A program made the translations under genes and the position numbers. 64,000 nucleotides of DNA from Paludibacteraceae bacterium (GTDB lineage Bacteria; Bacteroidota; Bacteroidia; Bacteroidales; Paludibacteraceae), in contig JAGBVI010000001.1 of NCBI GenBank assembly GCA_017630395.1, positions 1 to 64,000 of the forward strand. Direction: 5' to 3'. Shown piece after piece: positions 10,255-62,815 of the stretch. Under the pieces are notes generated by a model. The model had not been told where the DNA came from. It did no database searches and was given only the letters and a program-made list of their open reading frames with translations. Position 1 is the stretch's first letter, and every line of letters begins with the position of its first letter.

Positions 10255-10422
10255 TCATTTTTCACTTGGCAAATCACTCATAAAATCATAATTCATAAAC
10301 TTTTTCACAATGTCATACACCATGAACTTATGAATTAATTTTACAGCCTTTTCCATTTCCTCCTTTTTCTTTTTGTTAGAAGGAGTGTAATTTTTGGTGA
10401 AGTAATTATGCTTCTTCTTCAT
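10255..10422 (-). CDS. Unknown 55-residue basic protein
   Basis: Start at ATG 10422 (MKKKHNYFTKNYTPSNKK) with GGAAAG 6 nt upstream. It overlaps by 17 nt the end of the TAG-containing gene at 10406-10630. The N-terminal half is Lys-rich, the C-terminal half is a helix rich in F/M/D (IVKKFMNYDFMSDLPSEK). Ends at TGA. Confidence 0.65.
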   Translation of the reverse strand: MKKKHNYFTKNYTPSNKKKKEEMEKAVKLIHKFMVYDIVKKFMNYDFMSDLPSEK

Positions 10423-10630
10423 TTGCTTTCCAACAATGACATGTATCGTTGGGGTCAATTATTCCCCAATTTTGAGAGCATGGCAAGTCCCAATTATCAA
10501 CTCTCTTATCTATACGAAGTTTCCAATGCTCACATGTTCCACAAATCTGTCCGTTCTTTATTCTTTCTTCCCTCTCTTTTCTTCTTCTTTCAGCAGACTA
10601 CCTAGTCAATTCAAAATTAATAATGTCCAT
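10406..10630 (-). CDS. Unknown Cys-rich (zinc-ribbon-like) protein with one in-frame TAG
   Basis: 74 residues when TAG is read through. MDIINFELTR, TAG at 10598-10600 (codon 11), then SAERRRKERE, then CGTCEHWK...LPCSQNW...NDTCHCWK, TAA. The Cys pattern and flanking words match the intact paralogue at 17390-17680 (CETCKHW...CHLPDNTCLNW), so the frame is genuine. TATAAT lies exactly 6 nt before the ATG. The gene is missed by standard-code prediction. Early genes therefore also carry the recoded codon. Confidence 0.8.
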
Positions 10631-10636
10631 AGTCTT

Positions 10637-10665
10637 ATTATACAATTATTCAGTTACTTTGCCAA
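10637..10665 (-). promoter_or_regulatory. Leaderless-type early promoter
   Basis: TTGGCA, 17 nt, TATAAT, AAGACT, ATG (10630). The -35 side overlaps the 3' end of the gene at 10646-10831. Confidence 0.8.
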
Positions 10666-10831
10666 TGTAATCATTTTCTGAGAAAGGCATTATAATGTTC
10701 TCTTTACCAAGTCCTTCCTCCACAGGAAATCCATTCAATTCTTCAAATCTTCGTTTCCACAAATTATTTTCAAATTCAACTTTAGCCTGTCTTCTCGCGT
10801 TGGCTAAACTCATCATGTCGTCATATTTCAT
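10646..10831 (-). CDS. Unknown 61-residue protein
   Basis: Start at ATG 10831 (MKYDDMMSLANARRQAKVEF), 6 nt after TATAAT. Helical, basic first half and NGFPVEEGLGKENIIMPFSEND second half. Its last codons and TAA lie inside the next promoter. Unknown. Confidence 0.68.
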   Translation of the reverse strand: MKYDDMMSLANARRQAKVEFENNLWKRRFEELNGFPVEEGLGKENIIMPFSENDYIGKVTE

Positions 10832-10861
10832 GCGCTTATTATACAATTATTCGTCACTTTG

Positions 10862-11236
10862 TCAAGAGTTTTGTTTATCTGAAACAACAAAAGGATACAT
10901 GAAAACAGGAGGGTCATCTTCATGTTCTTTTCTCATCGTTTCCTCTAATTCCTTTAATCGTTTTGCTTGCTCAGCTTGTTTTCTCTCCAATTCTTTATAC
11001 CACTGTAAAAACTTCTCATTCTTACAGTCATCAATGGAACAATTTACAAAATCAAATTCGTCAATTACTGCCTAAGTTGGGGGTTTATCCATTGTGCAGA
11101 GTGATAAGATTTGAATTCTTCCGTTATCATACCACCATTCATGATTTGATTCTTTACCATACTTACCAAAATGATTACTTTCCCAATCAAGGAGTTCATC
11201 ATAATCCTTGAAACAATATACTGTGTATTTTGCCAT
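10862..11236 (-). CDS. Unknown 124-residue protein with one in-frame TAG
   Basis: MAKYTVYCFKDYDELLDWES... up to KPPT, TAG at 11072-11074 (codon 55), then AVIDEFDFVNCSIDDCKNEKF, a charged helix and TGA. The FVNCSIDDCK.E.F block and the N-terminal FKDY.EL..W block both occur in the intact protein at 20795-21313, on either side of where the TAG falls here. This shows read-through rather than two genes. Invisible to standard-code prediction. Confidence 0.82.
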
Positions 11237-11247
11237 ACGGTTATTAT

Positions 11248-11733: not shown

Positions 11734-11778
11734 AAGCCAATTATATGTCAGTTCTGTGGATGTAAAATGATTTTTTAT

Positions 11779-12141: not shown

Positions 12142-12212
12142 AACTTGTCATAAAAATTTTTAATTTTGTATATGTTTTCTTCACGAGTTCCATTCTTTTT
12201 TTCATTCCCAAT

Positions 12213-12629: not shown

Positions 12630-12662
12630 ACTATTATTATACATTAGTTCTATTATTTTGTC

Positions 12663-12692
12663 AAAAAAAAGAGCAACCGAAAGGTTGCTCTT
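12663..12692. terminator. Terminator, GAGCAACC type
   Basis: Perfect GAGCAACC-GAAA-GGTTGCTC hairpin with a preceding A-run (T-run on the minus strand). Confidence 0.9.
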
Positions 12693-16473: not shown

Positions 16474-16656
16474 TTAGAAAGAAATAAACATGTGGTTATG
16501 TTTGTCCAACTGAATAGGAATAATAATTCTATCACTCTTTTCTTCGTTAGATTTGTCACTATAACATTCGCCACTGATAATAGCAACACAAAAAGAAGTC
16601 ATCATCAGAATCATAAAAATTGCCATAAAAATTTCCGTCACCTTTTCTTCATCCAT
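16474..16656 (-). CDS. Small single-pass membrane protein
   Basis: 60 residues: MDEEKVTEIF, membrane helix (MAIFMILMMTSFCVAIISG), then a charged tail. SD AAGGAAG before the ATG. It overlaps by 19 nt the read-through form of the preceding gene. Unknown. Confidence 0.66.
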   Translation of the reverse strand: MDEEKVTEIFMAIFMILMMTSFCVAIISGECYSDKSNEEKSDRIIIPIQLDKHNHMFISF

Positions 16657-16790
16657 ACTTCCTTTGTCTATGGTTTACTTTTCAAATTTATACTTCGTTT
16701 CAGCGAATCAAACTTAACAGGAGATTTATCCAAATAGTTTATGTAACCTCTGATAAAAGGGTCAGGTTCAAATTTCCATTCTTTATTCAT
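16638..16790 (-). CDS. Small protein with ambiguous terminal TAG
   Basis: MNKEWKFEPDPFIRGYINYL... ends after 40 residues at TAG (16668-16670). Read as sense, it runs 9 further residues (TKEVWMKKR) to TGA at 16638, overlapping the start of the next gene. The Shine-Dalgarno of the next gene lies just after the TAG, so a true stop at TAG is as plausible as read-through. The start overlaps the end of 16783-17268 (ATGAATAA). Confidence 0.5.
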
Positions 16791-21467: not shown

Positions 21468-22508
21468 TCACTTATTCATAACAATATCCATCTTTGTGAG
21501 CAAATAATCACAAATCCATTTCTTATCATCCTCTGGAATTTCAATCTTTTCAATATATTTCGTTAAAGAACCAGACAATGAGAAATCACCTGTCGGAAAG
21601 TCATCACCATCAATGTTTTGTGAGAAGGACTGTCCATTCTCCCATTCAAAATTGGCACTTCTTGGCTCACAGAGATTCACCAAGGTCATCAATTCATTCA
21701 AATCTGATAATGTAATGTTCTTATCAATAATCAACTTGAAGTAACTGTTGGCAATCTGCTGCTTCAACTTGTCAAATGCTCTCGTAGCAATAAGGTCTGA
21801 CAACTTGTAACGGACAAATGTAGGACTTATCGTATTCTCTACAAACTCGTACTACAATGTCTCTGTGTCAAATATGTCAAATCCCTTAGGTGTTCCCTCA
21901 TCTGAATAATCCATCTGGAAAGGATTGCCTACATATCGAACACTTCCTTCTTCGTAATCCTTTATCTGTCTGAGATGGAAGTGACCACTATATATTACCT
22001 TGTACTTAGGCAACAATTCAGAACATTTGAGGTCAGAGTTACATGCTCCTAACTTTTTATTGAACTTGAATACATTGATTTCAGCATGAGTGAATAGAAC
22101 ATCTGCACTGTCTTGGAGAGGGTCATATCCCCAACCACACATAAGAGTATCAAGATTACCAAACTTCACATGAGTAGGCTTAGTGTAAACCCTAATGTTT
22201 GGATAACCATTGAAAATATTGACCGCACTAACATCGTAAATCTTATCGTAATAAAGGTCATGATTACCCAAAATCATATGTAGATTGAAGTTCTTGAATT
22301 TATCAAGGAACTTACTTGTTGCATTGAGTGTATCAACAGAAATGGTAGAACGATTATGGAAGAAGTCACCGAGGAACACGATGGTGTTTATACCACCGTT
22401 CTCCAATCGTTCAATCATACTATCTGCCCACTTAAACGCAACATCATGCCATTTATGGTCGTCTGACTTAATACCAAGATGTAAATCTGTGAATATAGCA
22501 ATTTTCAT
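21468..22508 (-). CDS. gp47: Recombination nuclease subunit (gp47/SbcD/Mre11-like) with one in-frame TAG
   Basis: 346 residues when TAG at 21852-21854 (codon 219) is sense; T4 gp47 is of similar size. The N-terminal part has the metallophosphoesterase motifs FTDLHLG (residue 6 on), GDFFHNR, GNHD and SGHFH. The text runs GFDIFDTETL-TAG-YEFVENTISPTFVRYKL: the GF.IFDTE..L.F.EN word of the family spans the TAG. The C-terminal 127 residues are the domain that contacts gp46. Without read-through the enzyme would be truncated at 218 residues. Its promoter is at 22515-22542. Confidence 0.92.
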
Positions 22509-26345: not shown

Positions 26346-26647
26346 TGTTCTCCTGCTGCTTTCTTTAATTCATTTATAATCTTTTCTTTTTCTTCTCCTT
26401 CAAAGAAAGGATTAACATACACAGCAGTTATTCCATCATATACCTCAATCTTTCCCATAACCGCAGGATGATACGGACTTGGCTCTACCATCCACAAATT
26501 AAACAATAACTTGTCAATAGGATTATTCTCTTTCTCAATGTCCCACTTCTTGAATTCAAATTCAAATCCTTTAAGTGTAAATGGTGACTTCGTGGGGAAC
26601 TTCTGTTCCCCTTGCCAATTCTTATAATCTCCTATTATTTCAATCAT
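26327..26647 (-). CDS. Unknown 106-residue protein
   Basis: Begins MIEIIGDYKNWQGEQKFPTK; its ATG overlaps the TGA of thymidylate synthase (ATGA), so it is co-translated with it. Mixed alpha/beta with FEFEFKKWDIEKENNPIDKL and a C-terminal helix. The TAA stop is in the terminator stem-loop. Unknown. Confidence 0.7.
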   Translation of the reverse strand: MIEIIGDYKNWQGEQKFPTKSPFTLKGFEFEFKKWDIEKENNPIDKLLFNLWMVEPSPYHPAVMGKIEVYDGITAVYVNPFFEGEEKEKIINELKKAAGEQLLSHS

Positions 26648-27555
26648 ACTGCTACAGGCATTTTGATTGCTCCCAAGGGATTGTAATCTACTACCTTGAA
26701 ATCACTTCCATCTACGGCGAAATCTGATAACTCCAACATCTCACCACACCATACCTTTTCCAATAGACGCTCACTTATAACTAACTGAGGCTTAGTGCAT
26801 TTTGTGACTTCTTCCTAACGGCTGATAATTTCTTTCACACCTTCTTCTTGGTCAAGATAGTAGTGAGCATTACCGAGAACACCACGAACAACACCAGGGA
26901 TGTGTCCACTACACATTGCTACAATCTTATTCACAATGGTATACTGCAAAATGTTATAAGGAATACCAATAGGCATGTCTGCACTTCGCTGATGCCATGT
27001 AGTGTCCAATACACGCTTACCATCCTCCCGCTGTCTTGAATAGAACCACAAAGAATGGTGACAAGGTGGAAGAGCCATTTTACCAATCTCAGCAGGATTC
27101 CACATAGATGCTACCAATCGTCTATCAGTAGGATTAGTTCTCAATGTATCTATGATGTTCTGAATCTGATTGATATGGCTATCAGTATTATGGTCATACC
27201 AATTCACAAGTTGCTCACCATAAACAGGCCCAAGATTACCATTAATATCTTGCCAAGGTCTCCAATAACGCACTCCGTAATCTTCAAGATAGCGAGTATT
27301 CGTCATAGGCAAATCCTTATAACGGTCATCTTTCATGTGAATGCCAAGTAGCCACAAGGTTTCAATCACAGCACCCTTCCAATGGATTTTTCGTGTATTG
27401 GAAATAGGGAAGCCACTAAAACCTCTAGCATCCTCTGCTTCAAGAATAGCTGTGAACACGGATTTTGTTTCAATCCCTGTTCTCTCGTTCTTCTCCTTGA
27501 AGCCCAACTCTTCAATTTTCTTTAATAGTTCAATGTAACTCTCGTCAAATGTCAT
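26644..27555 (-). CDS. thyA: Thymidylate synthase with one in-frame TAG
   Basis: 303 residues when TAG at 26815-26817 (codon 247) is sense. It makes dTMP from dUMP and methylene-tetrahydrofolate. Visible are the RRLVAS phosphate-binding motif (145-150), catalytic Cys in LPPCHH (Cys165), WHQRSADMPIGIPYNI and, after the TAG, LGAIKMPVAV-TGA. The C-terminal (A)PVAV is conserved in the family and closes over the active site, so the enzyme needs the residues beyond the TAG. The TAG follows VKEIISR, where homologues continue directly. Overlaps both neighbours by ATGA. Confidence 0.95.
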
Positions 27556-27905
27556 ACTTTTTGTAAAATTACCAATTGGCTATCTCCATTTTCGTAATTC
27601 TCACGCCAATCAATGAGAATTTCAAGTGGATTTTCATTATATACTTCAATTCTATAAGTCAAATCATCGTAACCTCCAAATGGTACATGAGCAACTTCTC
27701 TACCATCTTCCGTAGAAACCAACGAAAAACACGGTGAACCTCCATCTGTATATTCAAAATAGTCAAGATGGAAATTGTACTTGTAAAGATAGAGAGAATT
27801 CAGATACCAATATGTTCCTCCTGTTGCAATGATTTGCCACGAACTCTTTTCGTTCTTCAAGAATTCTACCAATTCAAGAAACTCAAACTTCTGTCCTTTT
27901 TTCAT
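27552..27905 (-). CDS. Unknown 117-residue protein
   Basis: Begins MKKGQKFEFLELVEFLKNEK; beta-rich with aromatic residues (TYWYLNSLYLYKYNFHLDYF). TGA overlaps the thymidylate synthase start. Its own start overlaps the end of the 27883-28236 gene. Unrecognised. Confidence 0.7.
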   Translation of the reverse strand: MKKGQKFEFLELVEFLKNEKSSWQIIATGGTYWYLNSLYLYKYNFHLDYFEYTDGGSPCFSLVSTEDGREVAHVPFGGYDDLTYRIEVYNENPLEILIDWRENYENGDSQLVILQKV

Positions 27906-28236
27906 CTAACTTAAACTCATCAATTAAAAACTTTCTCCAAGATGGACTTACTTCATAAAACTTTCTACCATAACTGTCAGTATAATCGTAAACGAAGATT
28001 CCACAATCAATACAAACTCTAACAAGGTATTCTCTATCCATGAATTCACCGAGCCAAAACTGTGTACTATGGAAGCAAATCCAATCATTGTACTAGACTT
28101 CGGGTTCATCAGGGTCAGAATACTTGTAAACTGCTCTACATAAATGTTCAAGAGCGTATTTGTCCTGCCAATCTAGGAGGTCAAATAACTCACGCTTATG
28201 CTTTTCTTGTAATGAGTAATACAACTCGTAATTCAT
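27883..28236 (-). CDS. Unknown 117-residue protein with one in-frame TAG
   Basis: MNYELYYSLQEKHKRELFDL... to PDEPEV, TAG at 28093-28095 (codon 48), then YNDWICFHSTQFWLGEFMDR... and TGA at 27883. The frame fills an otherwise empty gap, begins 7 nt after TATAAT and overlaps the next gene by 23 nt. Standard code sees only fragments. No family recognised. Confidence 0.75.
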
Positions 28237-28289: not shown

Positions 28290-28853
28290 ATGAGTGATAT
28301 ATATGACATTATACAAAGTCCTTTGAATAAAACACTTGAAGACAAATTCATATTTGTGATGAACTTACCAAATTGCTTAAAGAACTTGAAATCAAAGTAC
28401 GTAAAACAATTATCGGAAACTGGTATAGGAACAAACTCAATTGCATGGTCTTTAACAAATGTGGACATACCAACTAACAGCATCAAAGCGGAAAGTATGC
28501 CTTATGCTGGTGGTCATCATTATGTTTCGTCTCACACGAAAACACCTTATGAACCACTTAAAATTGAGTTCAAAATTGATAACAATTACGCAAATTATTT
28601 CACCATCTATGAATGGATGAACTTGATTTATAACGAAAAGGAAGCTCGTTATGACGCTGAAAATTTAGCAGGTGGTAAATCAGGTTCTAACATTTACGCA
28701 ACACAGTTGGCTGTAATAGGAACTGACGAATATAATAAACCTATAATACAATGGTCATTTACTCATGCGTTTCCAACTGAATTACAAAGCATTAAATTAA
28801 ACTATCAAAATACAGGCGAAATTACTTGTTCATGCTCGTTTGTTTTCTCCTAG
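28290..28853 (+). CDS. gp19: Tail tube protein (T4 gp19-like)
   Basis: 187 residues. The pattern fits gp19/T4-type tube subunits: N-terminal FIFVMNLPN, a central strand NVDIPTNSIKAESMPYAGG, PLKIEFKIDNNYANYFTIYEWMN (residues about 89-111) and the C-terminal FTHAFPTELQSIKLNY...ITCSCSFVFS. These polymerise as hexamer rings inside the contractile sheath. A GATAAATAACG late-type box precedes the ATG. No TAG. Confidence 0.9.
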   Translation: MSDIYDIIQSPLNKTLEDKFIFVMNLPNCLKNLKSKYVKQLSETGIGTNSIAWSLTNVDIPTNSIKAESMPYAGGHHYVSSHTKTPYEPLKIEFKIDNNYANYFTIYEWMNLIYNEKEARYDAENLAGGKSGSNIYATQLAVIGTDEYNKPIIQWSFTHAFPTELQSIKLNYQNTGEITCSCSFVFS

Positions 28854-28895
28854 ATGTATGTTAAAAATCACTTATTATCAAACTAATAGACAATT

Positions 28896-30161
28896 ATGAT
28901 ACCAAAGTTTAATGACAGAATAATGTATGTTGATGGTCTAAAAGAACAAGTTTTCTCCACAATCAACTCAATACATGGAATTTTATACATCAATGATGAC
29001 TACTCAATAAACACAATTGATGGAAATGAATTGGGTGTTTCTATTACCGAAAATAATTTTTTAGCAAAAAACTTAAAAGTTTTGGGTAATTGTGAATCTA
29101 ATAAAGTTTAGACTTACCAATCTGTGACAATTAACGAAATAGAGTTTCCAAGTTCGATAAGTGTTACAGATAACAAAGGTGACTTTCTAATCCATACAGA
29201 AGACTCTCAAAAATGGTCATCTGATATTTTAGATGACTGGTTGGAAAACAAAATAAAACAACACTTCAAAGATAAGTATAAATCAATTCCACGAGGAGCA
29301 ATTCATTGGTGTTACATGTCTCTGGATGATTATAAAGACTTACCATCAGATGACCCATTAAAAACCAATTATTTGTTATGTGATGGTAGAAAATATAAAA
29401 AAACAGAATACAAAGAACTATCAGAAATACTCAAAACAGTAATTCGTCATAAGAAAAACGAAAATCCATATTATTATTATCCAGAAAAAATTGATAACTC
29501 AAAAGATTAGGAATATTTTTACGTTCCTGATTTGAGACACATGTTCATTTCAAATGTCCAAAATGAGAACAATGATTCTGGAACTTATCTTCCAGACTGT
29601 AACTCAGTTAATGAAAAATTGGACAGAAAAAACCATAGACATTTTGTATCATATGGTGTATGGAAATTAAATCCTTTCGGTGAATATGCACAATCAAACG
29701 AATTGGATTATCCTAATAAGTTTAAATTTGATGAAGGTAACGGATGGTATGATAAAATTGGCGATGACGACTACAACCCAACTCAACCAATAATAAATGC
29801 AGAACAAGCATACAACAATTCTAATGTAAAATTAGAAAATGGGGACGAAGTTGGAATTTTACCACTACACAACAATCCATATACAACATATAATGATGGC
29901 ATGATTGGTTTTGGACACAACACCTCCCAAAACAAAGGCGTTGATTCAATTCCAGTTGGTATTTTCTTCCAAAAAACAAATCACAAAGACTCTCCTATAA
30001 ATGGTGATTTTGCTGGTCTTTCGTCAAATGACATTGACTCATTTATACCAACAACAAATCAATAGCCATAGGAAAAAATGCAATCAGATTACACAAAAGT
30101 ATCAAAGGGTCATGAAAATTACCCAAATTTCTACCCTATGTTACCACTTATCAAAATTTAA
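28896..30161 (+). CDS. Tail-collar fibre protein 1 with four in-frame TAGs
   Basis: 421 residues if TAGs at 29109, 29508, 30063 and 30069 are sense; stop TAA at 30159-30161. A short N-terminal domain is followed by the phage tail-collar signature: PRGAIHWCYMSL...YLLCDGRKY, TAG, EYFYVPDLRHMFI (the VPDLR word lies six codons after a TAG), then Asn/Gly-rich sequence with NHRHF, and a C-terminal FYPMLPLIKI. The next two genes also end in a LLPLIK word. Likely a receptor-binding or short tail fibre. The two TAGs three bases apart near the end (Q-TAG-P-TAG-E) are notable. Confidence 0.88.
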
Positions 30162-38212: not shown

Positions 38213-38246
38213 TAACTTATATCGCCTAATAGGTCAGGTTCTCTCT

Positions 38247-38285
38247 AAGCGGACAGTATTTCAAACATGCTGTCCGCTTTCTATT
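38247..38285. terminator. Bidirectional terminator between convergent genes
   Basis: AAGCGGACAG/CTGTCCGCTT, 10-bp perfect stem with a 13-nt loop and T-rich flank. It lies directly after the TAG at the end of the primase gene, which bears on whether that TAG is a stop. Confidence 0.88.
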
Positions 38286-43570: not shown

Positions 43571-44674
43571 TTACATTCCCATCTGCTCTGCTTCAAGCTC
43601 AGCCATGAAGTCATCCATGTCATTACTCTCAGCAAAAGTAGGAACGGAAGCATCAGAAGAATCAAGGCTGTAATCATCTTCAACCTCAGTATTCTCATAA
43701 GTTTCCTCCTTGGAAGCAACAACCTTAGGAGCAACCTTTTCCTCATCGGACATCCATGCAGCGGAAACGTGCATAGAAATCTTAGGATTGGAAAGGAAAG
43801 ACTTCACAAAGAGCTTCTTCACATCACCATAAGGACGAATGCTATCCTTTACAATCTCAGTAGGGTCAATCATGTCATTAGCAATACGCTCCTACACGAT
43901 TTCTTTGAGAGAAACACCCTCCTTTAACATGCGCTTGGTATCCTCTGCATTAGCATCAATACCATTATCACCGAAGAGGTCAGCCTTGGCAAAACACATC
44001 TCAGACTTAGCGAACTGAGGAATACCACCGTTATTAAGAGTTACCTTAACACGAAGATTCATACCATCAGGAGAAAGGTCAAACACCTTCTTGGCAACCT
44101 TTACCGAAGAACCACGAATCTCAGAGAAATGTGCATCCAACTGCCCATGAAGAGCACCATCAACAATATCCCACAATGCCTTATTAAGCTCGACAGGGAA
44201 CACCTTACCGTTATTCTCAGGAGACACAGGGTCATCCACGATAAGAGCATTCATTATACGAACCTCATTGCGATTGAGGGGAGAAAGTACACGCTTAATT
44301 TCCTCATTGTTACCAGTATTTGCGCGGAGGAACTCTGTACGCCATTCATCAATAGGGCATGCTTCACCAATGTTACCAGCCGAAGTCACATAGTTCCACT
44401 TACCGTAGGACTGACCAGGCTGGGGCATACCCTGCCAACGATACTGATAGCGGTATACATAGGTCTTGTGGAAACCCTCTGCACCTTCCTTAGTCCAAGG
44501 AAGAAGCTTAATGATGTAAGTGTTACATACATCCTCAATCTTCTCACCCTTCTGGGGCTTAGGGGCTACAAACTTAAAAATCTTGCTAGAAAGAAATTCC
44601 TTCTTAACACGATTACCACTATCCGTCTTTGCTACTACTGCACTTACAAGTGCGTCTAAGTCAATATTACTCAT
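43571..44674 (-). CDS. gp32: Single-stranded DNA-binding protein (gp32-like) with one in-frame TAG
   Basis: 367 residues with TAG at 43892-43894 (codon 261). The N-terminal and core part reads TYVYRYQYRWQGMPQPGQSY and WNYVTSAGNIGEACPIDEWR, aromatic-rich as in T4 gp32. After VSLKEIV-TAG-ERIANDMIDPTEIVKDS it continues to the acidic tail DMDDFMAELEAEQ, the hallmark of gp32-type proteins used to recruit partners. Without read-through the acidic tail would be lost. An unusually long leader with duplicated Shine-Dalgarno precedes it. Confidence 0.85.
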
Positions 44675-45739: not shown

Positions 45740-47062
45740 TTAATTGAAGAGATTGTTCATCCCTTGTATTGCTTCTGATGGGCTTCCCTCATCTGCTTCG
45801 CCTAATTCTACACTTTGTGCATCCTCGAATCGCAAGTTTTCAATGTTGAATCTCAAAGGAACTGTCATACCTTTTGCACCTAAACGACTCTTCAAGATTG
45901 CAGCTCTCATGATTCCCATCGTCAAATCTTCCTCTTGTCTGTATAAAGAAACAATGAAATCAGCCTCAGCACAAATTGCAATGGACTCTGCGAAATACTT
46001 CATGTCAGGGGTATTACTCATGCCATCTCTGTTAATCTGTGCTGCTGTGAATACAGGACACTTGTACTTGTAACTCAAAGCACGCATTTCTCGTGCTATT
46101 CTCTTCCCTGCTTCATTACTATTATCAGCATTAGGTGCATATAACAATGTCAAATAATCAACACATATCAAGTCAAACTTCTCACCTTGTCTTTCCAACT
46201 GTTCAATGTAACCATCCAATGCGCTTACTGTCAATGTACTAGGGGGAAATTCCTTGATTTTCATCTTACCATACTGCTTAGTAGCAACGCTTTGTCTAAG
46301 TTCCTCAGTAAGCATAGGAATACTATTGATAGGAAGATTATACAAATCAGCGTAGATACGTTGTGCATAGACAGTTTCACTCATTTCAAGGGAAACTACA
46401 AGAACATTCTTACCTTGTTTACAAGCATTTACTGCAATGTTAGCCAAGAAGATTGACTTACCCATGTTAGTTGGAGCAGAAACAACACCTAGAACCTTAC
46501 CATCAGCAGGTAATCCACCATTGATAATCTTATCAATCTCTGTAAATCCTAATGGAATACGATTATTATCTGTTCTACTCTCTTGAATGAACTTCTCTAC
46601 ATCTCTGTAGATGTCAAACGCATCTTCTTGGATTAGTTTTAGTGATGCCACATTGGTAAACTTCTCTACCAACATATCACTATCCAAGTCACCATTAGGG
46701 TCATAGTTACTAAAAATGTCCTTAAATGTAATGAGGGCAAGACGCTTCTTTATATAATTCTCAAAGTAATTATAAAGTTCCTCTTTCGGCATTTCCTTAT
46801 GGTCAACGCCTTTAATATTACCAAACGCTTCTCTTACATGTTGTGCTAAACCATCTGTATTAGCAAGCAACTTCACATCTTGTAGAGTAGGAACTCTACC
46901 CTTTTCATTGTAGAACTTCTGATAAAACCTAGATACTTCCTCAAATGACTTGTCAGCAAAAATTTCAGGCTTGAACTTCACATTCACCATAGGTAAGAAT
47001 GCGAAATCCATTACTAGACTTTTGAATAACAACTTCTCTAAGTATGTCTCATTAGGCTTCAT
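45740..47062 (-). CDS. gp41: Replicative DNA helicase (gp41/DnaB-like)
   Basis: 440 residues. N-terminal helical domain, a LGFTEIDKIINGGLP linker entry, Walker A SAPTNMGKS (about 195-203), LVVSLEMSE, Walker B LICVDYLTLL and AQINRDG, then a C-terminal tail. It is the RecA-type hexameric 5'-3' helicase of the fork and works with the primase at 38281. TATAAT lies 9 nt before the ATG. No TAG; TAA stop. T4 gp41 is 475 residues. Confidence 0.93.
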   Translation of the reverse strand: MKPNETYLEKLLFKSLVMDFAFLPMVNVKFKPEIFADKSFEEVSRFYQKFYNEKGRVPTLQDVKLLANTDGLAQHVREAFGNIKGVDHKEMPKEELYNYFENYIKKRLALITFKDIFSNYDPNGDLDSDMLVEKFTNVASLKLIQEDAFDIYRDVEKFIQESRTDNNRIPLGFTEIDKIINGGLPADGKVLGVVSAPTNMGKSIFLANIAVNACKQGKNVLVVSLEMSETVYAQRIYADLYNLPINSIPMLTEELRQSVATKQYGKMKIKEFPPSTLTVSALDGYIEQLERQGEKFDLICVDYLTLLYAPNADNSNEAGKRIAREMRALSYKYKCPVFTAAQINRDGMSNTPDMKYFAESIAICAEADFIVSLYRQEEDLTMGIMRAAILKSRLGAKGMTVPLRFNIENLRFEDAQSVELGEADEGSPSEAIQGMNNLFN

Positions 47063-47089
47063 ACACTATCCATTATACATGTGTTCTTT

Positions 47090-48733
47090 TTAGATTCCTA
47101 CCCACTCAAGCATGTCACCTCCCATAGTCTTTTCCATAGGACTATTCACAAAGGTTTCTCCCTCACAACACACAAACTTGATTCCTAAATGATGTGCCAC
47201 ACCTTCCATTAGAATTTTACCAAGTTCCTTACCCTTGTTCTTGAATGCTCTAAACATATTGGAACTCTTAGGATAATCCACAAAGAATTCAAATGACTTC
47301 TACATCGGAAATGCTGTAACATTTACATAACCATCCTCACCATTCACTCCATTACCCTTATTAAGATTCTCTTCAAGAGTTTCCTCAATTAACTGGGCAG
47401 TCTTACGGTCAATCTTATCACATACGAATCTCCAAGTGTAATATGGGATATTCTTCTCGTTTTTCTGACGAGCAAGAGCAGCAACGAGACTATCTTCTTC
47501 AATCTAATTCACCTCTTCCCAAGAACGAGAACTCTCAATGAACTCCATCAAATCCTTATTCTTTTGAGTATATTCCTTAACTATTTCGTAAGCCTCAACT
47601 TTCTTAGGAAGTTCTGCTTCAAGTTTGTTAATTGTAGTATTGAGATAATTAATACGATTTCTCATCTGTTTTACAGCATTATTGAGAGATTTAACATCTT
47701 TACTCTTATTTTTCTTAGCATGTTTAGAAGCAATAAGTGCTTCACTATATTGTACTTGAAGTTTTACAAGCTCATCTTTGAGATTCTCAATCTTCTGCTT
47801 CTCAATACTTTCATTAAAATGTTCCATAGAACATCCAAGTCTCTGCTCATACTTGGCAATAGTTGCTTCATACCTTTTCTTATCAGAGAATTCAGAACCC
47901 TTACGGACTTCACCCTTAGAGCGACTACGAACCTCCACACCTAAACTGTTACGAATTTTCGTAATGATATTAGGAGAATATAGATGATTACAAAGGTCAG
48001 CCCAAGAGCCATCATATTCATCAAGGCGAATCTCCCATTCTCTTTCAATCTAATCAAGAGTAGAAGGTGTAAGTAAGAATGACATCATCTTAGGAGTAAA
48101 ATTCTTACCTAATTCTTCTTCAATTTTCATCTGACGCTTATAAGCAGTTTCCCAAATCACAGTCTGTGTATGACCTTTTACAGAATCACAAGCAATACTA
48201 TCGAGATAAGGAACTGCACGGTTTCTAAAACAGTCCAACGGCATAGAACAACAGAAGAACTCACTCATACCATCGAGAATATCTCTGTCACAAATACCTT
48301 GCCAACTACGACCGTACTTTTCTGCTTTAAGGAATGAATTAGGTGTCTTGAAATCTTTTACAAAAGTAGGAATAATCATACCCTTCCAAGACTTAGGCTG
48401 TGTATCCTTAACCATTTGAACAAAATTAGGATGCTTCTGACAATTCTCATTAAAGTTCCAAGCTTTTTCAGTAGTATAATTCTTAGGAAAGAACTTAACA
48501 AAAGCATTTAAGTCTTTTTTAGACGAAGATATTTCTTTTTTGTTTGAATATCTAATAACACATTCCTTCGAACGATATACTTTATCAACAAGACCAAGTG
48601 TTTTCAAAATTGAAGAATGTATAGTAATAGAAGAAATTGCATAATCACTTGTTACAATTTTGGCAGCTCTCTGCTCATTATCCGTAGGCTTACGGATAAT
48701 GACTTTCTTATAATCATCTTTGTTAATTTGCAT
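47090..48733 (-). CDS. Unknown 547-residue protein with three in-frame TAGs
   Basis: From ATG 48733 (MQINKDDYKKVIIRKPTDNE), with TAGs at 48050-48052 (codon 228), 47504-47506 (codon 410) and 47300-47302 (codon 478), TAA at 47090. In standard code it appears as three unrelated ORFs plus an apparently empty 220-bp gap. Residues 290-400 form a long coiled coil; the C-terminal RAFKNKGKELGKILMEGVAH is basic. It sits between helicase and UvsX, so a recombination or replication accessory is likely, but no family is recognised. Confidence 0.8.
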
Positions 48734-52145: not shown

Positions 52146-53411
52146 ATGATAGTTCAAAGAACAGAGACGCACGTAATCAAAGAATCCAATCCCATCTACA
52201 ATTGGATTCTTGAAGAATGTTCTCGTTCTAAGAATCTTTACAACAAAGCGTTATATGTTTATCGTCAAGCCTTTACGGGAAAACATGATAACATTCCTGA
52301 GTTTAAGGACATCATAAAACATGATAAGTTTATCGCTTCTTTTGCCTTGGTCAATAGATTGAATGAGATAAAGGATGTGGATTTTTGTTCTATGATGAAG
52401 AAAAACGGAGCACAACAGATAGTGTTCCAAGTAGATAAGAGCATGAAATCTTGGTTCGCCTCATTGAAGGCTTATAAAAAAGATAGTAGTAAGTTTAGAG
52501 GTAGACCGAGGATTCCGTCTTATAAGAAAAAGGGAGAATTAAACTGTTTGACTTATACTACTGCTGACGCAAAGTTACAGAAAGACGGAACTATCAACAT
52601 TTCAAAGAAGATTAAACTTTCAATTCACACAAAACTTAAGAATTTCCAACAAATTCGTTTAGTGCCTAAAACTGGTTACGTTCAAGTAGAAATCGTTTAT
52701 AATAAAGAAGTAAATGACAATCGTTTAGACCAAACCAGAGCAATAGGTATTGATTTAGGATTGAACAATTTAATGGCTATAACTTCAAACATTGGTAACA
52801 TATCTAACCTTGTTAATGGTAGACCATTGAAGAGTATAAATCAATACTATAATAAGAGAAAAGCACACTTCATGAGTTTGTTAGAGAGGGGTAAGTTAAA
52901 GAGTTCTAAGAGACTTAGAAGATTAGAAATGAAACGAATAATGAAAATTAAGGATTATCTTCATAAAACAAGTAGAAGAGTCGTTGAGTTGATGGAACAG
53001 AACAATATAGGAACTTGTTTCATTGGTCACAATGATGGATGGAAAAATGAGGCAAACATGGGTAAAAAGAACAATCAAAACTTCGTTTCTATTCCTTATT
53101 CTCTCTTAATCAATATGTTAAAGTATAAGATAGAAGAAAAAGGAGGTCAGTTGGTTGAACTCAATGAGTCTTATACTTCTAAATGTTCTTTCTTGGATAA
53201 TGAAGAGGTATGTAAACATGAGACTTATAAAGGGAAGAGAGTGAAGAGAGGATTATTCTTATCAGAGAATAAAAAGGCATTAAACGCTGACATAAATGGC
53301 TCTTTGAATATTCTTAAACGAGGAATCGGATTCAGTTTCAAAGTGGAGAATGATATTTTTAGACCAACTAAAATAGATATAGAAAAGAAACTCTTGAATC
53401 CGTTAGGATAA
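52146..53411 (+). CDS. tnpB: TnpB-type RNA-guided nuclease (IS605 OrfB family), without TnpA
   Basis: 421 residues. RuvC catalytic residues: Asp203 in IGIDLGLNNL, Glu341 in ELNESYTSK, Asp382 in NADINGSLNI; the basic N-terminal helical half is the RNA-binding region, with KFRGRPRIPSYKKKG. The zinc ribbon is reduced (KCSFLDNEEVC...), as in the TSK.SFLD subgroup of TnpB. No transposase A is nearby, so it is either an isolated IS or a domesticated nuclease. The start follows ACTAAATACTTATAACG, a late-type box. It ends at TAA, with no TAG in frame. Confidence 0.9.
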   Translation: MIVQRTETHVIKESNPIYNWILEECSRSKNLYNKALYVYRQAFTGKHDNIPEFKDIIKHDKFIASFALVNRLNEIKDVDFCSMMKKNGAQQIVFQVDKSMKSWFASLKAYKKDSSKFRGRPRIPSYKKKGELNCLTYTTADAKLQKDGTINISKKIKLSIHTKLKNFQQIRLVPKTGYVQVEIVYNKEVNDNRLDQTRAIGIDLGLNNLMAITSNIGNISNLVNGRPLKSINQYYNKRKAHFMSLLERGKLKSSKRLRRLEMKRIMKIKDYLHKTSRRVVELMEQNNIGTCFIGHNDGWKNEANMGKKNNQNFVSIPYSLLINMLKYKIEEKGGQLVELNESYTSKCSFLDNEEVCKHETYKGKRVKRGLFLSENKKALNADINGSLNILKRGIGFSFKVENDIFRPTKIDIEKKLLNPLG

Positions 53412-53545: not shown

Positions 53546-54853
53546 ATGAATTATAAGGTAACTTTTTATAAAGATGAAATGGAGATGCTTACAGAACGTA
53601 AGGCTAATTTTGTCAATAATGTAAAGAAGTTGACCTCACAAGTAATGTCTAAGTTAGCAAGAGAGTGTGGAGGTAACGGCGAAACAAGTGGTATGGCTAT
53701 TTTCAACCATCTCAAACAAATGCACTATGATAGAGAAAAAGTGTGGAGATGTGGAATTACACTTGACAATTATAAAAATTTCAAACTCGATAACTTTACA
53801 AATACAGGGAAACCTATACCATTCAATTTCAAATTCGTAACAGGTGGTGATAATGAAAGTTATAGTCGATTTGACGCTAGGGGTCATGTTCTTCCTAAAA
53901 CTATAATGGGAAGAAAGTTCATTTCAGAAGTGTATATCGAACTTGATTTCTCACTCTGTCTTACTGATAATCCTAAAATAGTTGTAAAACAACTTATCAA
54001 TGAAATTCAATCAACTCTCACTCATGAATTAGCACATGCTCATGATGAGTTTATGATGGGTGAATTATCGCAGTATAAAGAAAAAGGTGTATCTGATGAA
54101 GATTTACGATACATACTTTATTGGACTAAACCTACTGAAATTCGTTCTCACATGTTAGAGGTTATTCAAAATCTAAATTCAAAGAAACACCATAGTTTTG
54201 AAAGAACTTTCAAAAACATGTATAAAACCCATCAAACGGCAGAAGAAGCAGGAATACAACATTCCCCAAAAGACAAAGAGAACATGAAAACTGCTTATTC
54301 AATGTTGAAGAAACATAATTCCTCAATCATTATTGATAAAAAATCTTCTGATGCTTTGGATGATGTTATTGATAGAGCATTCCACAATCAATGTCCACCT
54401 CTTCATAAAAAGTTCATTCATGATTATCATATTGCTTTCATTCAGCAATCTAACCCTAAAATGAAAGAAAGATTTTATGATAAGTTGTTCCCTAATACTC
54501 CTACACAACCCCTCGATAAATTGAATGACTTTTTGGAGGGTATGAAATCTGTTGCTAGAGCTTTAACAAAGTTGGATAATGAAATCTCTAAACATGTAAC
54601 AATGTGTTGGAGAAGCTCATCTTGGAAAAGAGTAGAAATGATAGAAAATGCTGAAAAAACGAAAGCAGCTTATAAAGAATTTCGTAACAAAATTTGGGAA
54701 AATGACAGTCCTATGAAACAAGCATTTAAAGACTATGATGTCAAAATTCTCAAAAATGCAGCCAAACAAATGATTGAGGAATTCAGAGAACAACATGGTC
54801 TTATGACTAAAGCAATGTTGAAGAAAGCAGCAGCAAAGGATTTTGGAAAATAA
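53546..54853 (+). CDS. HExxH metalloprotease-like late protein, copy 1
   Basis: 435 residues. HELAHAHDE at 160-168 is a zinc-metallopeptidase HExxH motif, followed by YWTKPTEIRSH about 35 residues later, which could supply a third ligand Glu. The first 40 residues (LTERKANFVNNVKKLTSQV) and the C-terminal helix are shared with the next gene. Unusual for a phage late protein; it may process virion proteins or act on the host wall. It uses Asn where the paralogue has TAG (about residue 331). TAA stop. Confidence 0.8.
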   Translation: MNYKVTFYKDEMEMLTERKANFVNNVKKLTSQVMSKLARECGGNGETSGMAIFNHLKQMHYDREKVWRCGITLDNYKNFKLDNFTNTGKPIPFNFKFVTGGDNESYSRFDARGHVLPKTIMGRKFISEVYIELDFSLCLTDNPKIVVKQLINEIQSTLTHELAHAHDEFMMGELSQYKEKGVSDEDLRYILYWTKPTEIRSHMLEVIQNLNSKKHHSFERTFKNMYKTHQTAEEAGIQHSPKDKENMKTAYSMLKKHNSSIIIDKKSSDALDDVIDRAFHNQCPPLHKKFIHDYHIAFIQQSNPKMKERFYDKLFPNTPTQPLDKLNDFLEGMKSVARALTKLDNEISKHVTMCWRSSSWKRVEMIENAEKTKAAYKEFRNKIWENDSPMKQAFKDYDVKILKNAAKQMIEEFREQHGLMTKAMLKKAAAKDFGK

Positions 54854-54865
54854 ATAATTATCACA

Positions 54866-56254
54866 ATGAAGTATAGAGTATCATTTTACGAAAGTTTAGA
54901 ACATTTGCTCACAGAACGAAAATCTAACTTTGTCAATAACTTAAAGAAATTGACAAGTCAGGTTGTTACTAAATTGGCAAAGAAAATGGCTGCTGAAATG
55001 GGTAAGCAAGAAAAAACAAGTGGTTTGACAATTCTTGAATTCCTAAAAACAATGGCAGCGAATGGAAAGGAAGTGTGGCGAGGAGCAATAACATTAGACA
55101 ATTATTCTAACTTGGAGATACCTTATTTCCCAAACACAGGGAAGCCTATTCCGTTTAAGTTCAAATACAACTGTAATGGAACTTACAACATATCCAAGTT
55201 TGATGCAAAGGGTCATTGTTTACATCAAGCTATAAAAGGTCAAAAAGTGATTGCTGAAATTTATCAGGAAATGACCTTTTCTATAAACCCTGATGCAGAC
55301 CCTAATATTGATGTAAAAAACTTAATCAATGAAATTCAACATAACCTTGTTCATGAACTTGCACATGCCCATGATGAATACTTGTCTAATGAAATTTCTA
55401 CATACAAAGCAAATTCACGAACTTCTGATTCTGACATCAAATACATTGAATATTGGTTGAAACCAACGGAAATCCGTTCTCACTTCAATGAGATGATTCA
55501 AATTATAAACTCAAAGAAACACCATAGTCCTGAAAGAACTTTCAAAAACATGTGGAAAACACACGATAAAGCTAGGGATTTAGGTTATAGTAGTGGAGAA
55601 TGGGGAGACCAACAAAGGAAAGTATATGGAATGTTGAAGAAAAAACATCAATCAACATCAATTGACGAAAAATCAAAAGATGCCCTTATGACTGTTCTTA
55701 ATAGGGCTTTCAGAGGTAATTGTCAAAAACTACTTTCAAACTTCATTTACACCTATCACATTGCTTTTATTAGAGACTTTAATCCTAAAATGAAGGAAAG
55801 ATACTATGATAAGTTCTTCCCTGATACTGATGTCCCATCATTGGAACAAATGTAGGAATTCTACGAAGCAATCAAGAATGTTACAAGAGGTTTCACTAAA
55901 CTCAAAAAGGAAGTTACTGATAGCGCAGTAAAAAGAGGAAGAGCAAGAGGTTATTTTTCAGACGAAGATAGAGAAACTGTAAATGAATTCAATGATTTGT
56001 ATACTAATTTGTGGGAAAATGATACTTTGAAATCAGCTTTTGAGAACTTTAATCCTAAACTCCTCAAAAAACTTGGTAAACAAATGATTGAAACTTATAG
56101 AGAAAAACACGGTTTCATGACAAAAGGAATGATGACCAAGGCAGCAAAAGCTTATACAAAACAGATTGAAAAAGAATACAGAGAAAAGCATGGTCGTGGA
56201 GCTGAGGGTATGGAAGACTTCTTCAACTCAGACCCATCAAGTGTAAGACGATAA
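54866..56254 (+). CDS. HExxH metalloprotease-like late protein, copy 2, one in-frame TAG
   Basis: 462 residues with TAG at 55853-55855 (codon 330). HELAHAHDE and YWLKPTEIRSH match copy 1, and so do the flanking regions. Around the TAG the copies align as LDKLNDFLEGMK / LEQM-TAG-EFYEAIK, continuing without gap to the shared end EFREQHGLMTKAM / TYREKHGFMTKGM. This is a direct internal control showing that TAG is read as an amino acid. It ends at TAA before a terminator. Confidence 0.88.
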
Positions 56255-59343: not shown

Positions 59344-59352
59344 GTAATCCAT

Positions 59353-59850
59353 ATGAAAATCAGAAGTCTGTATCTTGTAAATCTCGCTGACATTATTAAG
59401 AAAGTTGAAAAGTCAGTTTTGCAATTCTCCGTGGAAACAGGGATTGATGTTGTAAATGATTTGACTAACCTCTTCATAAGTCGTGTTTTCTTGGAGATGT
59501 CCGAGATTTACAAGGTACAGCATGATGCTTTTGTAGCATTCTATATTGACCAGAAGATAAAGTTGCATCTCCTTGATTGTGAGGGATTTATACTTTACAA
59601 GAGATTCTTCAGAATAATGGAATTGGAAGTAAAGTTCCCTGTAATTATAGCAAATATTGACTATGAGAAGTTTGCAGAGATGATGAAAGGTAATTGTCCT
59701 GAGTATGATGAAGTGATTGCCAATCATCGAAGTTTTGCTGAATTATTCCCTAAGTTGAAAAAAGTTATAACAAGAGCAAAGTATCATAGACTTAGTAAAG
59801 AAGTTGTAGAAGATTTACAGAACAGGTGTAAAATGATGTTATCATTATGA
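59353..59850 (+). CDS. Unknown 165-residue late protein
   Basis: MKIRSLYLVNLADIIKKVEK; helical, with hydrophobic helices and Lys-rich C-terminus. It follows the lipoprotein after 9 nt and ends at TGA overlapping the next ATG (ATGA). Unrecognised. Confidence 0.7.
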   Translation: MKIRSLYLVNLADIIKKVEKSVLQFSVETGIDVVNDLTNLFISRVFLEMSEIYKVQHDAFVAFYIDQKIKLHLLDCEGFILYKRFFRIMELEVKFPVIIANIDYEKFAEMMKGNCPEYDEVIANHRSFAELFPKLKKVITRAKYHRLSKEVVEDLQNRCKMMLSL

Positions 59851-60365
59851 GTAACGAATTGAAAATGTACGTACACGAAGTTGAGTGGGAGATAATTTGT
59901 GATATTCTTAGTAGGGTGAATAATGTTAATAAGTTGTTTACATATACTATGCCTAATAAGGCAGAAAGCTACGCTTCTGAGGGATTTGGGATAATCCAAA
60001 AAATTAACGAATATGGTTCAAGTGAGGACGAAAGTTGGAGAATTACAACGGAAACGAATATAGGACTTGAATGCGGAAATGATTGGAGCTTAAAAGTCGG
60101 TGATTGGATTATAAGTCGCGGCGTTAAAAATCTTTGTATTCCTGCAATAAATTCAATAATCATTATACCTTCCTCGGACAGCACATATAAAGGTAACAAA
60201 GATTTGACTAAAATTATACAACTTACCAATTGTATTTCTGTTACACCGTTATTGATGAGAATGAAAGATATTCCTGTTGAAGGGGTGGATGGAAAGTTCA
60301 ACCTCGGAGTAAGCTTGGAAGTAATTGACGAAAAAGATGACGAAAAAGAAAAACCCGCTGAATAA
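59847..60365 (+). CDS. Unknown 172-residue late protein
   Basis: MSNELKMYVHEVEWEIICDI; N-terminal helix, central beta region (LKVGDWIISRGVKNLCIPAI), acidic C-terminus (DEKDDEKEKPAE). The stop is part of the terminator stem. Unrecognised. Confidence 0.7.
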   Translation: MSNELKMYVHEVEWEIICDILSRVNNVNKLFTYTMPNKAESYASEGFGIIQKINEYGSSEDESWRITTETNIGLECGNDWSLKVGDWIISRGVKNLCIPAINSIIIIPSSDSTYKGNKDLTKIIQLTNCISVTPLLMRMKDIPVEGVDGKFNLGVSLEVIDEKDDEKEKPAE

Positions 60366-60382
60366 GAGCGGGTTTTTCTTTT
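60350..60382. terminator. Terminator with T-run
   Basis: AACCCGCT-GAATAAG-AGCGGGTT followed by T-rich sequence; the stem overlaps the TAA of 59847-60365 and it separates convergent genes. Confidence 0.9.
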
Positions 60383-60385
60383 TTT

Positions 60386-62815
60386 TTAAATGAGTCCTTT
60401 TGATTTGAAAAGTTTTAGTTTTTCTTTAATCCAAGGGTCTTCTTCGTTTTCAGCGAAGGGTTCTTCTTCTGATTCAGTACCTTTTTTCTTACCTTTATAC
60501 ATATGCGCTTTTTTATTAGCGCGGGAATGAGCATTCATTTGTGCGCGAGTCTTGACTCGGATTTGATTATTTGTGTTTTTAGAAGTTTCCTTTGCTTCGA
60601 CGTCATGAACTTCTTCATTATCAGGATTTTCACTGGAAACATGTGTCTGAGAAGATGGTTCTTCAACAACCTCCGTATCACTCTCATAATCTTGAATGTT
60701 TTCAAGTGATGTATTGTCATTTTGTGGTTGTTCTCCCTATATATCAGTTTCAATTCCTTTTTCATTTTGCTTGTCAATGGAATCTTCATTCGGTTGAGTA
60801 TTTTCCTCGTCTTGAATACCGTTGTTTTGCATTATATTATTTTCTGTTTCGTCAAATTGAGGACTTTTAGTTTCTTCTGACGATTTTTGCTAAGAAGAGT
60901 CTTCATTATTTGTCGTTTCAGAATTTGCATCTTCCGATTCCTGTTGATTTTCAGAGTTTTCTACCTCCGAATCGTCTTGTACCTCTTGTTTTCGTCTAGT
61001 ATAAGCAATTGTGTTTAATTTTTCAAAGAATTGATAGTTTCTCTTATTTTCGTCCACGCTATATCCCATGACAAAAAATCCTTGTTCTCCTTGTTGTTGG
61101 ATAGACTTGGCTAAATTAGTTAAAATTGGTTCAAACTTTGAACTTTCAACCGAACCCAATGAAAAAAGTTTCATGAGAATTGAATCAGAAGATTGTATGA
61201 TTTTAGTAACTGCATTTACAGAAGATTTGGAAACTGTCTTTGTGTTTGTGTCGTTGTTCGCCTCAATTTTTTTCTTTTTTTCTTCCAATTCTTTTAATTT
61301 TTTATCATTCTCCTGTCCAAATGCGAGAGGTTGACCTTTGTCAATTAATTCTTTGTACTTTGCTTGTAAAGGTTTTAATTCTTTGTCTATTTCTGCAATT
61401 TCGTCATTTATTGTTGAAGAATTGTTTTTAATAGGAACAAACCACAAAGTGAAATTCATTAGGTCTTCAAAATCAGTTTGAACCTATTTGACTTCTTCCG
61501 TTGTAATGTTATCCATTTCCCCATCTACTTCTCCGTTTTGATTGGGTGTAGTAGATGTAGTGTTGTTGTCTTGTGTTTCAGAATTCTAAGTGGCGTTTTG
61601 AGTTTGTTCCAACTGCTGTTCTGCATCTTCGAGAATTAAACTATTTTCAAGAACTGTAAGAAATTCAAATAGTGTTTCTTCTTGTTCTTCGTTTCCGTTA
61701 TCTTGTAAAGGATATTGATTTTCATCACTTCTCATTTCAGGTACTGCTCGTTTTGCCTGTTTAATTGCTTTTTTCCACAATTTTCGTTTTTGTTCTAAAC
61801 CTGAAATCACATCGTCAAAATTATCACCTTTATTACACATGAATGATGTAACTGGTATAATCGGTATTGTTTTCAAGTCAATTTCATTCCAAGAAGGGAT
61901 TATAGTGGAATCAATGTCTGCATCTGTTTGGTTTGATAAATTCTACGGAATTGCAGTATTTGATAATTTTGAACGAATTGCATTTTTATCAGTTACCAAG
62001 ATTTCTTCCGCATGAACTATGCTTTTTGCTCCATCACAAATTTTTTTCCATACAAATCTGCCACCTAATGCAGCAATAGCACCGCCCACACCTTTTGCAA
62101 TGTCTTTTGCCATATTTGCAGCACCATATACAGGTTCTAAAAGACTCTTGTCTTCACCACCCTTTAACCAATCAGCAGCACCCATAGCACCCCTACCGAG
62201 CGTTTTTAATGCACCCCATGCACCTTTTGTTACTGATTTACCTGCTTCAACTCCAGCTTTACCAGCAGTGATACCCATTTTGAGAGCTTTCTTTGCCTTT
62301 GAATCATCCCATTTTTTAGCGGTTTGGTCTGCTTTACCTTCAAGACTTTCCCCATAAACTACATCAATACCATCATTAGATATATTTGTAGCACTCACGT
62401 CAATGAGTGCTTTAAGTTCGTTCTCTACAAATCCCTTTGAAATTAGAATAGGATTTGTATTAGTGCTTCTATCAGAAACTGAAAATGGAATTTTTTTATA
62501 ATCTTCTCCCGCAAATTTGATATCAAGTTCAATAACAGGACGGTTTTCGATGTTACCTCCACCCATGTTTATTTCAATAGTATCAATAACCTTGGCTTGA
62601 ATCTTTTTTTCATTCCCCTTGTCATCATGAGTAGTAAACATCAATTCAGAACCTTGCTGATGGAAGTCAGTACCATGAATAACATTATATCCACCGTTAC
62701 CACTATCAATCTTTGCCGATAATTCACCAAGTCCCTTAATAAGGACAGGTTCTTCAAGACCAATTACCAAGCGTTCTAATAAAACCTTTTGTTCAAGAAA
62801 ATCTAAGTATGTCAT
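60386..62815 (-). CDS. Large late protein with retropepsin-like domain and five in-frame TAGs
   Basis: 809 residues with TAGs at 61943, 61586, 61484, 60890 and 60737 (codons 291, 410, 444, 642 and 693), TAA at 60386. Residues 25-135 match the aspartic retropepsin-like Zn_protease/RimK-associated fold: LSAKIDSGNGGYNVIHG (active DSG) and FSVSDRSTNTNPILISKGFV. Residues of about 180-260 are Gly/Ala-rich (GAWGALKTLGRGAMGAADWL) and membrane-like; the rest is acidic and Asn/Gln-rich coil with KELEEKKKKIEAN. Standard code gives disconnected ORFs. A processing or internal virion protein is likely. Coupled to 62812. Confidence 0.85.

Follow-up and report, generated by a model that had tools for sequence, protein, structure and literature searches.

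The window analysed here, positions 1 to 64,000 of the contig JAGBVI010000001.1 (C113 in the coordinates below) from a Bacteroidales (Paludibacteraceae-like) metagenome bin, carries phage genes with in-frame TAG codons on both strands. Our results confirm, as far as sequence can tell, that TAG is a sense codon throughout this ~375.6-kb phage genome, with TAA and TGA as terminators. C113 has 375,692 bases, 35% G+C and 141 identical bases at both termini, and because of this terminal identity it was treated as a circular genome of ~375,551 bases. Genes were predicted with our own caller, in which TAG is a sense codon and is left unscored. The 480 genes called cover 88% of the contig and end with TAA (339) or TGA (141) by construction of the caller. 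Altogether, 338 in-frame TAGs are found in 112 of them, and the standard code would shorten all of these, including TerL, the DNA polymerase, the portal and thymidylate synthase (ThyA). In the window, there are 42 in-frame TAGs in 22 of 100 genes. The preliminary description of this DNA had counted 35 TAGs in 16 genes; the phenomenon is real, but our counts for the interval it covered (10406-62815) are higher, with 41 TAGs in 21 genes, or 39 in 19 after removal of two low-scoring gene calls (10406-10630 and 16638-16790). With these two calls set aside, the TAG-containing genes of the window are the following.

10862-11236, minus strand: small gene, one TAG (11074)
21468-22508, minus strand: gp47/SbcD-like nuclease subunit, one TAG at residue 219
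26644-27555, minus strand: ThyA, one TAG at residue 247
27552-27920, minus strand: small gene, one TAG
27883-28236, minus strand: small gene, one TAG
28290-28886, plus strand: tail tube protein, one TAG at residue 188
28896-30161, plus strand: fibre-like protein with a weak tail-collar match, four TAGs
30177-31787, plus strand: next gene of the fibre run, no family match, three TAGs
31784-33616, plus strand: next gene of the fibre run, no Pfam match, five TAGs
33680-34921, plus strand: protein without assigned family, three TAGs
36099-36710, minus strand: protein without assigned family, two TAGs
36707-37123, minus strand: protein without assigned family, one TAG
38209-39333, minus strand: DNA primase-like protein, two TAGs near the C-terminus
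42740-43492, minus strand: protein without assigned family, two TAGs
43571-44674, minus strand: gp32-like single-stranded DNA-binding protein, one TAG
45740-47080, minus strand: gp41/DnaB-like helicase, one TAG at codon 5 (family match 7-422)
47090-48733, minus strand: protein without assigned family, three TAGs
54866-56254, plus strand: paralog of the gene at 53546-54853, one TAG
60386-62815, minus strand: 809-aa protein with an N-terminal Zn_protease Pfam match, five TAGs
62812-63195, minus strand: small gene, one TAG at codon 2

The sense reading of TAG, proposed earlier for the window, is borne out by the genome-wide number of these codons, by the gain in open reading frames (ORFs) and by a coding signal that is unbroken across them. 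Opening TAG increased the non-overlapping ORFs of at least 300 aa on the contig from 91 to 183 kb, as compared with 97 kb for TGA and 120 kb for TAA. A codon-usage score trained only on TAG-free genes (log2-odds per codon) averaged 0.101 over the 30 codons following 305 TAGs versus 0.099 over the 30 preceding them (n=301), the other two frames scoring -0.32 and -0.24 and the sequence past the 480 called gene ends -0.18. The frames of up to 2.4 kb that had been described as running through TAG are exemplified by the minus-strand gene at 60386-62815, free of TAA and TGA over its 809 codons; at this composition, the chance of as many random codons lacking both is ~5e-19. The TAGs are evenly distributed along genes, and up to 19 of them occur in a single gene of 2930 codons. 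Against this, the last 15 codons of genes hold 23 TAGs where 15.7 are expected, a mild excess, and a few genuine TAG stops may exist.

The contig coming from a metagenome bin, pseudogenes, sequencing errors or binning errors could be suspected, and the first of these had been raised in the preliminary description. We consider such an origin of the TAGs extremely improbable: the coding signal continues codon by codon across them, one occupies a position of the TerL Walker-A motif at which Gln is otherwise invariant, and TAG is also present in the DNA polymerase of two further contigs, one from another bin and one from IMG/VR. Moreover, relatives have ordinary codons opposite the TAGs, with Gln in two of four deep and three of five close columns.

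Known protein families of the window had been presented as complete only if TAG is read through, and this is only partly so. The matches of ThyA, the gp47/SbcD-like subunit, the gp32-type protein and the tail tube protein extend across or up to their TAGs; the ThyA Pfam match (6-303) runs through its single TAG, and residue 219 of gp47 corresponds to E in S-SCSM1 and R in T4. In contrast, the primase TAGs (residues 351 and 363) lie past the best primase match, which spans 12-329, the helicase TAG precedes the family match, and the tail-collar match reaches 20 bits against a Pfam cut-off of 24 in one of four fibre-region genes tested. The earlier picture of TAG genes "early and late" was also too even, as the block of small genes at 1-21.4 kb has three TAGs in 52 genes. 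The genes at 53546-54853 and 54866-56254 are tandem paralogs with 49% identity in their aligned part; a HELAHAHDE stretch is visible by eye, and they have no Pfam match.

The gene content of C113 indicates what kind of phage this is. Family matches include the T4-type genes TerL, tail sheath, DNA polymerase and helicase, as well as tail tube, a gp47/SbcD-like subunit, primase, a DnaB-like (gp41-type) helicase, a second helicase, a gp32-type protein, an exonuclease and UvsX. A gp55-like late sigma factor was recognized by phmmer matches to T4 and S-SCSM1, with no Pfam match. Judging from these genes, the phage is a contractile-tailed, T4-like jumbo phage of the T4 superfamily, in a separate lineage. 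In tblastn searches of GenBank phages, its UvsX is at most 29% identical to its relatives (best 40 of 2822 records) and its TerL at most 35% (best 60 of 2681 records). Close relatives were not found by UvsX in the viral-contig and genome-contig collections, nor by single-protein scans with the portal or with g451 (C113:348921-352001). Likewise, GenBank phages gave no megablast match to 24 kb of the window.

A related DNA polymerase is present in 2 of 358 genomes of the family, namely its own and the bin G451, and in one IMG/VR fragment, while a scan of 393 genomes of the order retrieved its own genome only. This distribution fits a host in the Paludibacteraceae, without proving it. The thymidylate synthase encoded by the bin itself shares 98% identity with that of a metagenome-assembled genome (MAG) labelled "Bacteroidales bacterium" and 82% with those of several Paludibacteraceae MAGs from herbivore guts. 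UvsX was discarded as a marker in the order, its matches in 201 of 393 genomes being apparently bacterial RecA (26-34% identity among the matches listed). Although G451 holds a related contig, 20 kb of the window had no match in this bin. In that contig (G451:C134), the DNA polymerase is split by ~1.7 kb (L161:1134-2881) containing a 568-aa ORF that looks like a homing endonuclease by eye, whereas the polymerases of C113 and of another related contig, L069, are uninterrupted. Other genes of the phage include a transposase-family gene (phrog_506) at 52146-53411 of the window, two genes similar to it by eye (C113:199734-201032 and 333465-334637), and a TAG-free gene of 554 aa (C113:82249-83913, plus strand) resembling the GroEL chaperonin by eye.

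Regarding the amino acid, the homologous columns and the acceptor arm of a phage tRNA described below now best support Gln, marked as an inference in the preliminary description, and there is little doubt in our minds that TAG is read as Gln, even though the paralog columns do not show it. Among distant homologs, 15 TAG columns have tblastn hits and four of these have at least 28. The TAG at TerL residue 103, inside Walker-A, faces Gln in 86/86 relatives and that at portal residue 280 in 39/40. Between C113 and its close relatives L069 and L161, five independent TAG columns comprise three Gln (DNA polymerase residues 90 and 540, and gp46), one Tyr and one Asn. A Codetta-like decoding with homolog profiles placed Gln first, at 0.785 with 12 columns and at 0.943 with 15 columns once 80 gp25 loci were added; this score rests chiefly on the TerL and portal columns. 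The same scheme gave the correct amino acid for 57 of 61 sense codons; for each of ten control codons tried with 15 random columns only, it did so in 205-296 out of 300 draws. Together with the five close columns, the profile gives Gln 0.99999, followed by Tyr, a figure for which the columns are taken as independent and those from paralogs are disregarded.

Several observations nevertheless weigh against Gln. It is the commonest residue in only two of the 15 profile columns; the TAG at portal residue 366 faces Thr in 38/39 and that at gp21 residue 168 faces Pro in 28/28, while ten further distant columns, with 1-4 hits each, include one Gln. The ThyA TAG column faces gaps in distant homologs. 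In the close comparison, the column of DNA polymerase residue 161 is Asn and that of g002, a 48-aa ORF, is Tyr (the residue found in C113). Paralogs within the phage give 43 TAG columns, 42 of them informative, in which Gln never occurs although about six would be expected (Gln codons in such columns keep Gln in 21/137), and their log-likelihood is slightly better for Tyr (-6.9) than for Gln and His (both -8.5).

Tyr, through a GUA-to-CUA tRNA change, is the most plausible amino acid other than Gln, but we find this reading very unlikely. Besides the paralog columns, for which it is kept as a rival, and the g002 column, it is favoured by residue 60 of g423 (Tyr in 58/71) and by a profile of the fibre repeats. 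This fibre-repeat profile was rejected as a TAG decoder since it decoded many sense codons wrongly, among them CAA and CAG. In contrast, the TerL and portal columns, the combined likelihood and the Gln-like acceptor arm of the tRNA disfavour Tyr, as do the close columns (three of five Gln versus one Tyr), though between these phages Tyr is better kept (113 of at least 124) than Gln (42 of at least 60). Many of the paralog TAG columns lie in fast-changing fibre repeats, the paralogous genes, many of them fibre-like, being located at 265-331 kb of C113. Repeat units whose core is MF..C-like number about 150 in 23 genes (e.g., 304653-309798 and 273742-276510), some of them single and maybe due to chance; TAGs in these units are mostly at variable positions.

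Gln as the reading of TAG is also where the tRNA genes point. There are none in the 64-kb window, but ARAGORN found 27 on the contig, and the search for a CUA suppressor proposed with the preliminary description was fruitful: one tRNA, encoded on the minus strand 171 kb outside the window (C113:235055-235130), has a CUA anticodon. Its fold is a cloverleaf in which the anticodon and T loops have seven bases each, the folding energy alone being weak evidence (z -1.03; 28/200 shuffles fold equally well). In the acceptor arm, taken as seven pairs plus the discriminator base, it is identical at 13/15 positions to the phage tRNA-Gln(UUG), including the A1/C72 mismatch. Of the remaining 74 tRNAs in the comparison, the best, a CUA tRNA from a different phage, reaches 11/15 and the next 9, and no tRNA-Tyr is among the 11 closest. 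This set comprised the phage tRNAs, 30 loci of the bin's 73 tRNA matches and three other loci; another tRNA, with an arm that resisted parsing, was omitted. GlnRS uses a weak 1-72 pair, G2-C71 and U35 as tRNA features, and since the acceptor arm and U35 of the suppressor resemble those of tRNA-Gln, it would be charged by the host GlnRS.

The elbow of this tRNA is atypical, a point against its function as a suppressor: the T-loop (CGCGACA) is without U54/U55 and the D-loop without G18/G19, and the Rfam tRNA model misses the gene, at its gathering threshold and at E up to 5. Another Rfam tRNA scan, with 150 of 265 candidates scored, had no match at the locus either. With such an elbow, the tRNA is a putative suppressor. 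The T-loops of all but three of the 76 tRNAs begin with TT, the exceptions being those of the suppressor, the phage tRNA-Gly(UCC) (AGCGTTA) and the other-phage CUA tRNA (TCCGAAT). By eye, paired changes distinguish the anticodon and T stems of the suppressor from those of the tRNA-Gly(UCC), an argument in favour of a working fold. Neither of two suppressors of other phages compared has this elbow in full.

The tRNA-Gly(UCC) (C113:243498-243571, minus strand; L041:19498-19571) shows the same non-canonical elbow, with no GG in its D-loop, and is not listed by the Rfam tRNA model. The other-phage CUA tRNA with the partly similar acceptor arm is located at L183:7782-7857, minus strand (IMGVR_UViG_3300001869_000005). 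A 114-base Rfam tRNA match at C113:244131-244244 (minus strand), not called by ARAGORN without introns, is possibly an interrupted tRNA. In the viral-contig collection, a suppressor-like DNA pattern retrieved 22 stretches with one CUA tRNA, and a second pattern 40 stretches with one tRNA, an ordinary tRNA-Gly. HDV-like theta ribozymes cleave at the 3' end of suppressor tRNAs in known phages (PMC10879173); beside the present suppressor, Rfam models gave no match to an HDV-type ribozyme at E<=5. Titles and abstract openings in the literature yielded nothing on suppressor tRNAs with altered T-loops.

No release factor was found on the phage contig in a search of the whole bin with PF00472, the two RF-1-family matches being on contigs C27 and C93, and a phage release factor was consequently rejected as part of the switch. 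Similarly, no GlnRS was found on the phage contig, the bin having two GlnRS/GluRS-family matches, on C111 and C53. As all these matches are off the contig, the phage seems to bring the tRNA alone. It is highly probable that this is a T4-like jumbo phage with code 15, whose own CUA tRNA would insert an amino acid, most likely Gln, at UAG in competition with the host RF1, while UAA and UGA terminate.

The upstream regions of C113 genes suggest when this would take place. Two signals are enriched there, TTGACA-TATAAT type sites and the word TAAATAAT/CTAAATAA, which occurs within 30 bases upstream of 46/480 genes (its reverse complement, of four). The T4 late promoter consensus is TATAAATA, which the word resembles; the literal TATAAATA precedes four of the 190 genes that have a gap upstream. 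Behind the sigma70-like sites (62 genes), TAG accounts for 2/215 Gln codons, as against 72/490 in the late-motif genes (45), one gene having both motifs; genes holding TAG are 2/62 and 18/45, respectively. Looser promoter classes go in the same direction (early, 80 genes, 3/249 Gln codons; late, 53 genes, 87/584). By region, the TAG share of Gln codons is 24% among the structural genes at 296-362 kb, 2.6% at 0-21 kb and 2.7% at 90-150 kb. The suppressor itself has a TTGACA-TATAAT type site ~0.7 kb upstream (235838-235866), one tRNA and two small genes lying in between, and in the gp55-like sigma gene (C113:361380-361901) a TAG encodes residue 31, which precedes the conserved part. Across C113, TTGACA-N15-19-TAnnAT occurs 96 times versus 13.4 in letter shuffles and the Bacteroidota-type TAnnTTTG is less enriched (34 versus 20.1), while both are enriched in 71.6 kb from other contigs of the bin (8 versus 1.8 for the TTGACA type and 17 versus 4.2 for TAnnTTTG).

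From these data, we infer that the suppressor is made early and the TAG-rich programme late. In the mechanism we propose, the tRNA would be made early from the sigma70-like site, and many TAG-rich virion genes would later be activated by the gp55-like sigma at the TAAATAAT motif, which lies immediately before the start codon. Since gp47 is behind a full sigma70-like site and the DNA polymerase behind a matching -10 region only, each with one TAG, the tRNA would already be required earlier than the late stage. Some results weaken the scheme. The early and late classes are defined by motifs and not by transcripts; 372/480 genes have neither motif, and TAG makes up 264/2360 of their Gln codons (11.2%). 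Length-matched tests were also weaker (late 3/22 versus early 0/46, p=0.03; 10/17 versus 2/11, p=0.054).

A further proposal is that this early-made suppressor acts as a translational gate, the late sigma TAG and the virion TAGs waiting for UAG decoding, and is a chimeric tRNA with a Gln-type acceptor, a tRNA-Gly-like body and the odd elbow; we advance it only tentatively and would not expect it to hold as a whole. Partial readthrough, in which UAG often still terminates and the suppressor level sets the output of full-length late proteins, is a doubtful alternative. The RF-1-family factors of the host, the TAG excess in the last 15 codons and the rarity of TAG behind sigma70-like sites would agree with it, but TAGs are spread evenly along genes and a full-length product of the gene with 19 TAGs would be very rare unless decoding were efficient. 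As to the early suppressor and late TAG-rich programme, the promoter pattern makes the timing hypothesis testable: early-type sites have few TAGs in the genes behind them and one such site precedes the suppressor, and TAG also occurs in the late sigma gene. With its distinguishable early- and late-type motifs, this genome is a place to test why phages recode stops. A late-gene hypothesis is credited to Borges et al. 2022 by PMC11210395; titles and abstract openings of the records listed revealed nothing on late promoters and stop reassignment together.

Among known systems, the T4/cyanophage superfamily (Straboviridae, Kyanoviridae) shares with this phage the core replication and morphogenesis genes and the gp55-like late sigma, albeit distantly (UvsX 29% and TerL 35% among the matches listed). 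Phages of this superfamily generally use the standard code. Crassvirales have a crAss-type TerL and a non-contractile tail. In contrast, the present phage has a T4-type TerL, tail sheath, tail tube, UvsX, and gp41- and gp32-type genes, and its TerL, sheath and tube led us to reject a crAss-like membership. Recoded crAss-like phages nevertheless likewise use TAG as Gln, as detected in structural proteins, code 15 having been confirmed by proteomics in two of them (PMC9523058).

The Lak megaphages of Prevotella (code 15) are likewise huge and translate TAG as Gln with a CUA suppressor tRNA. They also encode RF2, and their TerL TAG columns face Gln at 77%, 75% and 85% in three groups (PMC8346664). 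Their genomes are larger (~540 kb versus ~375.6 kb), the ThyA of Lak-B7 is 32% identical to that of C113, and the Lak-B7 CUA tRNA has an ordinary T-loop (TTCGAGT) and an acceptor arm unlike that of our suppressor. The TerL of Lak-B6 is 31.6% identical over 51% of the query, i.e., related but not close, and this low identity, together with no RF2 having been found on the phage contig, led us to discard Lak membership. Recoded jumbo phages of gut and rumen likewise have code 15 and a CUA suppressor tRNA; 385 jumbo phages with alternative codes were reported among 10,754, as was a Portal_GP20 made whole by code 15 (PMC13037316), and a CUA suppressor in 375/715 table-15 phages (PMC11210395). Our phage is a new case of this known code-15 trait in a separate T4-like jumbo lineage; with it, the code-15 phages gain a jumbo genome that is circular and T4-related, and what is unusual in it is the odd-elbowed suppressor tRNA and the TAG in the late-sigma gene.

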